Part shown: positions 14,135-21,292 of the stretch, one piece after another
How positions within the stretch are numbered: the first letter of the stretch is position 1
Layout of the letters: every line of letters begins with the position of its first letter
Origin: Bacillota bacterium
Lineage (GTDB): Bacteria > Bacillota > UBA4882 > UBA10575
Length of the DNA stretch: 50,189 nucleotides
Direction: 5' to 3'
Assembly: GCA_029782135.1 (NCBI GenBank)
Contig: JAKOVI010000098.1
Coordinates: 1-50,189 of the forward strand
The notes under the pieces: model-generated
Seen by the model: the letters and a program-made list of their open reading frames with translations, nothing else
Databases searched by the model: none
What the model was told of the DNA's origin: nothing
Position numbers and translations under genes: made by a program

Positions 14135-14395
14135 TTGCTTTCGTACGGAATTGTCCGCAAGGTTGACGAACTTGGACGGATTGTGATCCCGAAAGAGACG
14201 CGGGAACAATTGCAGATCGCAATTAAGGACCCTCTGGAAATTTTCACGGATAATAATACGATTATTTTGAAAAAGTACCAACCCGGCTGCCTGTTCTGCG
14301 GAAAAATCGAAGATCTGCACGAAATTAAAGGACGCTGGGTTTGCGGCAGTTGTATCCAGGAAATCCTGGCCGAAGCCGCCCAGCAAACTTCCTAA
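14135..14395 (+). CDS. AbrB-family transition regulator with C-terminal Cys4 motif
   Basis: An 86-residue DNA-binding protein. Residues 1-47 are the swapped-hairpin AbrB/SpoVT domain (GIVRKVDELGRIVIPKETRE). The tail carries two CxxC pairs (Cys52/Cys55 in GCLFCG and Cys70/Cys73 in VCGSC), spaced like a small zinc ribbon, which fits AbrB paralogues such as Abh rather than SpoVT. It should regulate stationary-phase or early sporulation genes as a tetramer; targets are unknown. The start is TTG at 14135 with AAAGGAGG upstream. A TATAAT lies about 40 bases before it. It is monocistronic. Confidence 0.9.
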   Translation: MLSYGIVRKVDELGRIVIPKETREQLQIAIKDPLEIFTDNNTIILKKYQPGCLFCGKIEDLHEIKGRWVCGSCIQEILAEAAQQTS

Positions 14396-14415: not shown

Positions 14416-14456
14416 GACAAAAAAAGACCGGGTTTTCATGTTTCCCCGGTCTTTCT
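14416..14456 (-). terminator. terminator of the candidate small RNA (also usable by abrB)
   Basis: Ten-pair hairpin, arms AAAGACCGGG (14423-14432) and CCCGGTCTTT (14445-14454). On the minus strand it is followed by TTTTTTTG, a much better U-tract than the TTTCTTCG on the plus strand, so its main use is for minus-strand transcription. Confidence 0.85.
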
Positions 14457-14650
14457 TCGTATACAGCTCATTTTACTTCGTTTAAAGATCGGTACATTAC
14501 TGCCACTTTTGTTCCAAATCCTGTCGTCAACGTTAGATCATCGTGGATAACATTGCAATCTGGGTTGTGTAGATCATCATTAGTGCAAACAGTGCAAGAA
14601 CAGTTGCTTCGATGGTTGCCTTGACGCTTATTAAGACCGAGCCGTATTAC
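14416..14650 (-). ncRNA. candidate structured small RNA of about 235 bases
   Basis: A gene-less stretch that nevertheless is a complete minus-strand transcription unit. The promoter is TTTACA-17-TAGAAT (14657-14685) and the end is a strong hairpin with seven Ts. The predicted transcript can fold as a long rod with nested pairs: 14639-14647 with 14461-14469 (nine pairs), 14621-14626 with 14525-14530, 14610-14614 with 14539-14543, and 14593-14597 with 14553-14557. A side hairpin sits near 14485-14520. No open frame with a start codon and ribosome site fits. The rod shape recalls 6S RNA, but I could not match a conserved family motif, so the class is open. Confidence 0.55.
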
Positions 14651-14656
14651 ACACCT

Positions 14657-14685
14657 ATTCTATCAGCCCTTTTGTTAATTGTAAA
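14657..14685 (-). promoter_or_regulatory. promoter of the candidate small RNA
   Basis: Minus strand TTTACA (14680-14685), 17-base spacer, TAGAAT (14657-14662). It faces the gene-less stretch. The first annotated coding frame on that strand beyond it lies more than 900 bases away, past the terminator at 14416-14456 and the convergent abrB gene. Confidence 0.65.
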
Positions 14686-14748
14686 TAAAAAGATTATCCC
14701 TGAAATAAAGTTTATTTCCGTTACGGAACATAACCAACTGGTGAAAAC

Positions 14749-15558
14749 TCATCTTCCGTTCAGCGCTTCGAACCATTGAACCACCCGGTTGGTGGGGTTA
14801 TCCCCCCAGAAGGCTTTGATCCGGTGGGGGGCCTCCCGTTCCAGGATCAAATAGAATTTATAAGTGAAAAAGATCTTGCTCCATCCGGTGACACCCATCG
14901 CATAAAAATAATGCCCTGCTTCATCCAAACTCCGGATCCGCGCCGGCAGGTTCTTCTTCGCCAACAGTTTTTGCAGTTCCCGGCCGCCAAGGGGCTTCAT
15001 CTCCACCGCGATCAGCTGACCGTTGTTCATATTGATCACATTTCCCCGGAAGGTATTGCGCCCTTTGTTCTGCAAGGCCTGGACAAAAAAGCAGAAAGTC
15101 TCCAGATCGTATGCCTGTTCTTCCATGGCAATCTCTTTGGTATACAGAATTTCGCCGCCGGTTAATACCGAAAACTCCATGACCGCTTCGTCCGCCCGGT
15201 AGGTGGTCACCCGCTGGTCATAACCGAGTTTTTCAATATCGGCCGCTTTTTTGAACCGGAGATCGCTTTCCAGCAACCGGAAGCCCCGGTCTAGACGGCC
15301 GGTATAATCATAATCCCGGCCCGTATCATGGATGGTAATCTCCCCGCTCGCCGGGTCAACCGTGACCTTTTTTTCATAAGCATAGAGCCGGTGGTCATCC
15401 GGGTTGATAATTGAAACATTATAGCGCTGAACCAGCGGTAGCAGCCGGCTCAGATTCTGATCGGCAGCGGTCTCCTCCTGCGCGGGCGGTTGCGGAAGGC
15501 AGCCGGCGAACAAGAGAAGGAAACAAGCAGGCCAAAAGCGTAAAAAGCGTTTTCGCAT
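14749..15558 (-). CDS. hypothetical lipoprotein
   Basis: About 269 residues. A short basic N-terminus (MRKRFLRFW) and a hydrophobic stretch end in the lipobox LLFAGC, so the protein should be exported and lipid-anchored on the outer face of the membrane. The mature part is polar, mixed alpha/beta, with no family I recognise. The start is set at the ATG at 15558 because GAGGTGG lies just upstream; a TTG six codons earlier is less likely. It is the downstream neighbour of the TIM-barrel isomerase gene (gap 64 bases) and may share its transcript. No function is proposed. Confidence 0.7.
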   Translation of the reverse strand: MRKRFLRFWPACFLLLFAGCLPQPPAQEETAADQNLSRLLPLVQRYNVSIINPDDHRLYAYEKKVTVDPASGEITIHDTGRDYDYTGRLDRGFRLLESDLRFKKAADIEKLGYDQRVTTYRADEAVMEFSVLTGGEILYTKEIAMEEQAYDLETFCFFVQALQNKGRNTFRGNVINMNNGQLIAVEMKPLGGRELQKLLAKKNLPARIRSLDEAGHYFYAMGVTGWSKIFFTYKFYLILEREAPHRIKAFWGDNPTNRVVQWFEALNGR

Positions 15559-15622
15559 CGGTTTCCACCTCACCAACGAGGAAAGAGGGTTCTTCCCCTC
15601 TTTGCTCTTCTTACTCTCCTGA

Positions 15623-19879: not shown

Positions 19880-20227
19880 AAATGGTTAAATTACCTCCAA
19901 AGCGATGAACAGGACTAGTATGTTTTCTTGAAGGTCAAGAGAGCCGGTGGCAGGTGCGAACCGGTCCGGCGGAAAACAGAATGGACCTGTGAGCCCGGGA
20001 CCGAACAAAACAGGCTCCGTCAACTTTGTGCGATCAGCACCACGGCAACTGGTGGTGGATATCTCCGCGGACGGATGTCCCTGTGTCAGTAGGTTCCGGC
20101 GGCCTCCGCCGTTATCCGGAAACCGGTTGCTCATTGCCAAATGAGCGCCGGAGCAAGCGGACCTTCGGGTCAATTTGGGTGGCACCGCGATTAACCTCGT
20201 CCCAATCTCAGGGAGGAGGTTTTTCTT
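19880..20227 (+). promoter_or_regulatory. tryptophan-specific T-box leader
   Basis: A tRNA-sensing leader. Stem I shows the GA motif and AGTA box (GATGAACAGGACTAGTA), the distal AGAGAGCCGG element, and a specifier loop GAA-TGG-ACC with the Trp codon TGG at 19982-19984. The T-box GGGTGGCACCGCG is at 20177-20189. It is followed by the terminator hairpin at 20193-20225 (ACCTC-TCCC pairing with GGGA-GAGGT, then TTTTCTTTT). Uncharged tRNA-Trp should bind, favour the antiterminator and switch trpS on. Confidence 0.95.
20193..20226 (+). terminator. T-box regulated terminator
   Basis: The hairpin that competes with the antiterminator: ACCTC-g-TCCC pairs with GGGA-g-GAGGT, then TTTTCTTTT. Confidence 0.85.
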
Positions 20228-20293
20228 TTACCGTCATCTTACCTATTCCAAAACCGGGTATCCCGGTTTGCAAAGGGCAAAGGAGTGTTTGCG

Positions 20294-21292
20294 ATGAAAA
20301 AACGAGTTTTTTCGGGGGTTCAACCCAGTGGCGCCCTCACGATCGGGAATTATTTTGGCGCAATCCGCAACTTCGCCAAACTCCAGCATGAAGCCGACTG
20401 CTTCTTTTGTGTAGTCGACCTCCACGCGCTCACCGTACCGCAAGATCCAGTCACTTTAAGGGAGAATATTAAAAATACCGCCCGCCTTTTTATCGCGGCC
20501 GGGATCGATCCCAAAGTCTCGACCGTCTTTGTCCAATCACATGTCTCCGCTCATTCCGAGCTCAGTTGGCTGCTGGAATGCCAGACCTATATCGGCGAGT
20601 TACGCCGGATGACCCAGTTTAAAGCGAAGGCCGGAAAACAAGATGTAGTCACCACCGGACTGCTTACCTATCCGGTCCTGATGGCTGCCGATATCCTGCT
20701 CTACAATACCGACCTGGTCCCGGTCGGGGAAGACCAGAAGCAACACCTGGAGATCACCAGGGATCTGGCGATCCGGATCAACAACCGTTTCCAGGAAGAG
20801 ATCTTTAAAGTACCGGAACCTTACATCCCACCCCGGCAGAGCGGCGGCCGGATTATGAGCCTGACCGAACCGCGGGAAAAGATGTCCAAGTCGGCGGAGA
20901 ACCCGAAAAGTTATATCGCCCTCCTGGATCCGCCCGAACTCATCAAAAAGAAGATCATGTCGGCGGTCACCGATTCCGAGGCCGCGATCCGCTATGATGA
21001 AGAGCAGAAACCGGCCGTCTCCAACTTAATGGTCATTTACTCTCTTTGTTCCGGGGAAAGCCTGGAGACGATCACCCAGAAATACGCGGGGTGCGGTTAC
21101 GGGCAATTCAAAAAAGACCTCGCCGAACAACTGGTTGAAACCCTCCGTCCCATCCAGGACAGATTCCTCGAATTGTCTGCCCCCGGTGTCATCGAGGAGA
21201 TCCTTGCCGCCGGGGCGGACAAAGCCCGCGCCGCCGCCGGGCCGAAGCTCCGCCTTTTCCGGGAGAAACTGGGCTTGTTACCGTTTGCTTAA
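20294..21292 (+). CDS. trpS: tryptophanyl-tRNA synthetase
   Basis: Charges tRNA-Trp with tryptophan; a class Ic synthetase of 332 residues, the bacterial standard length. The HIGH-like motif lies in SGALTIGNYFGA near the N-terminus and the second signature is KMSKS (about residue 195). The ATG at 20294 (MKKRVFSGVQPSG) is chosen because AGGAG lies eight bases upstream; a GTG three codons earlier is possible. It is expressed through the T-box leader and ends at a bidirectional terminator. Confidence 0.98.
   Translation: MKKRVFSGVQPSGALTIGNYFGAIRNFAKLQHEADCFFCVVDLHALTVPQDPVTLRENIKNTARLFIAAGIDPKVSTVFVQSHVSAHSELSWLLECQTYIGELRRMTQFKAKAGKQDVVTTGLLTYPVLMAADILLYNTDLVPVGEDQKQHLEITRDLAIRINNRFQEEIFKVPEPYIPPRQSGGRIMSLTEPREKMSKSAENPKSYIALLDPPELIKKKIMSAVTDSEAAIRYDEEQKPAVSNLMVIYSLCSGESLETITQKYAGCGYGQFKKDLAEQLVETLRPIQDRFLELSAPGVIEEILAAGADKARAAAGPKLRLFREKLGLLPFA

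Follow-up and report, generated by a model that had tools for sequence, protein, structure and literature searches.

Covarying helices are the basis on which structured RNAs are discovered, and base-pairing small RNAs (sRNAs) keep their seeds accessible. Several described bacterial RNAs resemble in part the RNA gene presented here. 6S RNA (RF00013) has the same size range, paired 5' and 3' ends, and a promoter of its own, and in the bacterial Y RNAs (YrlA) an end stem with a mismatch or bulge closes a large loop, as is predicted here. The CsrB/RsmZ sponges share the principle of repeated short protein-binding words. The CrcZ/CrcY Hfq sponges of Pseudomonas are likewise A-rich, open RNAs with repeated short A-containing words and their own inducing promoter, and the distal face of Hfq binds ARN units (PMC9037510). 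Finally, Hfq-dependent trans-encoded sRNAs of the Clostridia, such as SpoY and SpoX, have in common with this locus an independent gene, an intrinsic terminator, and the presence of Hfq (PMC10267692).

The RNA studied here departs from each of these systems. Unlike SpoY/SpoX-type sRNAs, it has no conserved seed, a far longer open region, and a nearly invariant terminator loop. Long ARN runs are not enriched as in CrcZ/CrcY, RYAAY words being enriched instead within a loop closed by an end stem (P1) in a different phylum; multiple long ARN or AANAAYAA motifs, as expected of a CrcZ-like Hfq sponge, were not found. A CsrB-type sponge was rejected because GGA (CsrA) motifs in the interior are not enriched, occurring at a shuffle-like level (17 versus 15.8). 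Identity as a Y RNA was rejected because the Ro60 protein (TROVE, PF05731) had no match in the host genome, which is 96.6% complete; the RNA also has no Rfam match. Rfam 15 at the gathering score yielded no match for the gap in the window or for ten relatives, in keeping with an earlier note on this DNA that could name no known family, and no description of the RNA was found among the papers searched. The gene product is a new RNA family of a known kind, the independent bacterial sRNA.

The earlier note also likened the layout to 6S RNA. That the RNA is a 6S-like regulator of RNA polymerase is barely credible: size, closing stem, and promoter are similar, but at E values up to 10 the matches to the gap in the window were all implausible (microRNA, snoRNA, and enterobacterial entries), with RF00013 absent, and the interior forms no rod, central bubble, or apical stem. 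Furthermore, the genome already holds two bona fide 6S genes (C37:79237-79418 and C52:6986-7165; 108 and 69 bits).

The gene occupies the minus strand of a gap, 353 bp long, that separates abrB from a lipoprotein gene in the window, by which we mean the whole 50,189-nt stretch analyzed (Table 1). The complete, unannotated minus-strand unit reported by the earlier note was located in this gap, with its promoter, predicted RNA, ten-pair hairpin, and seven Ts, and the promoter and terminator proved to be conserved independently of the neighboring genes. Because the promoter block, P1, and the 3' hairpin are common to 13 genomes, the unit is not a product of chance; that this is a real RNA gene, read here as independently transcribed, is nearly certain.

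Table 1. Coordinates of the RNA gene, its parts, and its flanking genes in the window
Feature	Position	Strand	Remarks
abrB	14135..14395	+	flanks the gap
Terminator T run	14419..14425	-	seven Ts, to 14419; from sequence
3' hairpin = terminator	14423..14454	-	AAAGACCGGG-GAAACAUGAAAA-CCCGGUCUUU; ten pairs; loop nearly invariant
P1, 3' strand	14461..14471	-	AUGAGCUGUAU; pairs with 14637..14647
Interior loop	14472..14636	-	between the P1 strands; sequence diverged, length kept
P1, 5' strand	14637..14647	-	AUACGGCUCGG; a mismatch or bulge separates four outer from six inner pairs
Predicted RNA, ~232 nt	14419..14651	-	both ends inferred, the start 6-7 nt past the -10 and the 3' terminus in the T run
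Promoter	14657..14685	-	-35 TTTACA, 17-bp spacer, -10 TAGAAT preceded by TG; sequence and alignment
Palindrome	14702..14719	-	GGAAATAAACTTTATTTC (GAAATAA-N3-TTATTTC); centre ~-60; presumed activator/operator site
Lipoprotein gene	14749..15576	-	flanks the gap

Distribution, gene neighborhood, and upstream palindrome

The unit was found in 13 of the 17 genomes of the order, representing five of its seven genera. In a DNA search of 40 relatives, the sister genome matched over the full length of the unit (81%), and genomes of other genera matched mainly at its two ends; the matching named records are Bacillota metagenome-assembled genomes, one of them labeled Hydrogenispora sp. A model of the 3' end gave no convincing match beyond the order among 29 genomes of the class, and a P1 pattern searched against 398 genomes of the phylum recovered only genomes of genus g2 and two apparent chance matches. 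The RNA gene is single-copy and restricted to an order of uncultured Bacillota that resemble Hydrogenispora. Within the family, four genomes, three in one genus and one in another (g3 and g4), seem at this level of search to be without the RNA even when the surroundings of dnaE are included, and the RNA would therefore be dispensable.

Across several genera the gene lies mostly near dnaE; in g2 it follows dnaE closely or stands a few kilobases off. Adjacency to abrB is confined to genera g1 (that of the window), g5, and g6, and in G016, the most distant member, the RNA sits between tRNA-Leu and a gene that we take, from reading its protein, to be tlyA-like. Since promoter and RNA are kept while the neighbors differ, the RNA does not belong to a neighboring gene as its leader or trailer.

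Upstream of the RNA, the alignment contains an ungapped block, TTATGT-N7-CGGAAATAAACNTTATTTCAGG-N-AT-N-ATCTTTT-N-GTTTACA, which ends in the -35 element and is better conserved than the spacer and the -10. The palindrome within this region keeps an ungapped distance to the promoter across 12 genomes. In 11 of them a pattern search allowing up to three mismatches found it exactly once per genome, always at the RNA locus, and the twelfth shows it by alignment; such a solitary site suggests that its regulator serves the RNA gene alone. G016 lacks the palindrome and has TTTACA-17-TATAAT, with a better -10, a pattern that would fit an activator required where the -10 is poor.

Conserved ends and a diverged interior

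P1 consists of AUAC-N-GCUCUG opposite CAGAGC-N-GUAU, with 95.4% of alignment cells paired. The earlier note described four nested sets of complementary segments forming a long rod with a side hairpin, and proposed to look for covariation in relatives. Of these sets, conservation is limited to the outermost, P1, with the terminator as the one other conserved helix. P1 has changed on both strands: in the genus of the window, a U-A pair has become G-U on both sides, and in G016 the outer half of P1 is swapped for another complementary sequence (GCAGUU/AACUGC) with the mismatch or bulge in the same position. The G016 row is misaligned by two bases at this point, so that the pairing count misses the replacement.

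Members hardly differ in the 3' hairpin, GACCGGGGAAACAUGNNNACCCGGUC, loop included. A pattern for it was matched a single time in each of 12 genomes, apart from one extra occurrence just behind dnaE in G011, and use of the hairpin as a generic terminator of the lineage was rejected on this count. A plain terminator does not need a conserved loop, and the hairpin thus probably has a second role; it probably also terminates abrB on the opposite strand.

Inverted ends of this kind raise the question of a DNA-level or mobile element, similar to a MITE, in place of an RNA gene. P1 is an inverted repeat some 165-195 bp apart, and some g2 genomes carry 5'-truncated copies of the 3' end elsewhere; yet there is one full copy per genome, located near dnaE in several genera, the conserved promoter lies outside the inverted repeat, and P1 has undergone compensatory change. 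We regard a mobile element as highly improbable.

Between the P1 strands, length is conserved despite divergence in sequence. Of the 13 members, 11 have an interior of 167-177 nt (G009 has 195 nt and G016 has 129), and sequence identity between genera is low. RNAalifold, run on several alignments, predicted P1 and the terminator as the only helices. For the copy in the window, the fold energy of the RNA region has a z score of -1.46 with the terminator and 0.04 without it, which is unremarkable by itself; such structure could arise by chance. In 11 of 13 members the interior is less stable than dinucleotide shuffles (median z about +0.8), and its mean z score is +0.94 versus -0.67 for 60 local 170-mer controls. 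The reverse complement is equally structure-poor (z +0.88), so selection on the RNA strand may not account for all of the openness, part of which could stem from base order or composition. With no conserved helix and less structure than the controls, the RNA is neither a rod nor 6S-like. Covariation-based pipelines would miss it because most of the RNA seems to have been selected to stay open.

The interior is also enriched in short RYAAY words (AGYAA, GYAAY, and AACAA), a consensus that is provisional because a k-mer scan preceded the choice of motif: on nine clade representatives, 46 were counted versus 24.3 in shuffles, none of 500 shuffles reaching as many, and their density per 170 nt is 5.1, compared with 1.6 for local control sequence. 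ARN3 runs are weakly enriched (28 versus 18.6; z 1.9), and the longer runs typical of Hfq distal-face sites, ARN4 and ARN5, are not (ARN4, 3 versus 3.9). No seed of at least 8 bases common to the genera was found in the interior alignments.

Conservation of a reading frame, named in the earlier note as evidence that would speak against an RNA gene, was likewise not found: six pairwise genome comparisons in six frames gave no consistent protein signal. The long frame that it mentioned, free of stops but lacking a start codon, does exist. A stop-free hydrophobic frame of 37 codons is present in the window and the sister genome, where it remains open to the same stop position with somewhat conservative changes; its p value of 0.03 is uncorrected among many frames, and it is confined to g1. 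That the locus is a small-protein gene or a dual-function RNA, using this frame or, for example, one of 121 codons in G009, is nevertheless very unlikely and largely refuted already, as the frame is not shared. In the window the hydrophobic frame has no ATG, GTG, or TTG start; several genome pairs differ by one-base indels within the RNA, and indels and stops interrupt the frame in other genera; and neither the G009 121-amino-acid frame nor the g1 frame has a Pfam match.

A candidate protein-binding platform

We tentatively favor the reading, at a probability of about 0.4, that the single-stranded loop closed by P1 serves as a platform to which an RNA-binding protein, either Hfq or a similar one, binds. 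This reading is based on the apparent selection of a switch, closed ends, an open loop, and repeated words, together with the lack of a long conserved seed. In the proposed model, a transcription factor at the -60 palindrome would switch the RNA gene on; P1 and the 3' hairpin would shield the two ends as caps and keep about 170 nt single-stranded in a loop; and the RYAAY repeats (AGYAA/AACAA) in that loop would bind an RNA-binding protein, thereby sequestering or loading it. The invariant loop of the 3' hairpin (GAAACAUG) may serve as a second contact site. Hfq, which is encoded in the genome (PF17209, 108.5 bits), would be the best present candidate for the partner, and AGYAAN and AACAAN can be read as pairs of ARN units, that is, as sequence of the Hfq distal-face type. 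The case for Hfq is weak since longer ARN runs are not enriched, and we name it as a first candidate only.

Alternatively, the RNA may be an ordinary trans-acting, base-pairing sRNA, bound by Hfq and carrying lineage-specific seeds in its open interior, with P1 and the terminator merely stabilizing the molecule. This is the main rival to the platform and a serious possibility, if short of a probable one. A promoter of its own, a U-tailed terminator, a genome that encodes Hfq, and an open interior would all be expected of such an sRNA. However, an interior that keeps no seed of 8 or more bases across genera contrasts with an end hairpin that is nearly invariant, and openness over some 170 nt far exceeds what a seed requires.

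The platform reading can be extended to a new class of RNA, actively unstructured and closed by a stem, in which length and openness are kept while sequence drifts, RYAAY words titrate a protein, and a dedicated transcription factor acts at a single genomic site. We consider this extension unlikely. If confirmed, the open-platform design would be a new variant of bacterial sRNA. With a single-copy, lineage-restricted RNA and a dedicated upstream site in uncultured anaerobes, the partner protein, the inducer, and the function are each directly testable.

Other RNA elements in the window and in relatives

The window also contains an ordinary T-box leader (19896..20207, plus strand) directly 5' of a gene (20285..21292) that presumably encodes tryptophanyl-tRNA synthetase. 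Diverged, 5'-truncated copies of the 3' end of the RNA occur in G011 behind dnaE, in G009 behind a permease-like gene and elsewhere, and in G007; their positions are L035 1412-1466, L104 212-268, L105 311-367, and L106 (G009 C84:2438-2493), the last of which retains part of the interior as well. At L104, from about 160 to 268, AUACGGCU and AGCAGUAU lie some 50 nt apart and are followed by a related terminator, an arrangement that may represent a miniature form of the RNA.
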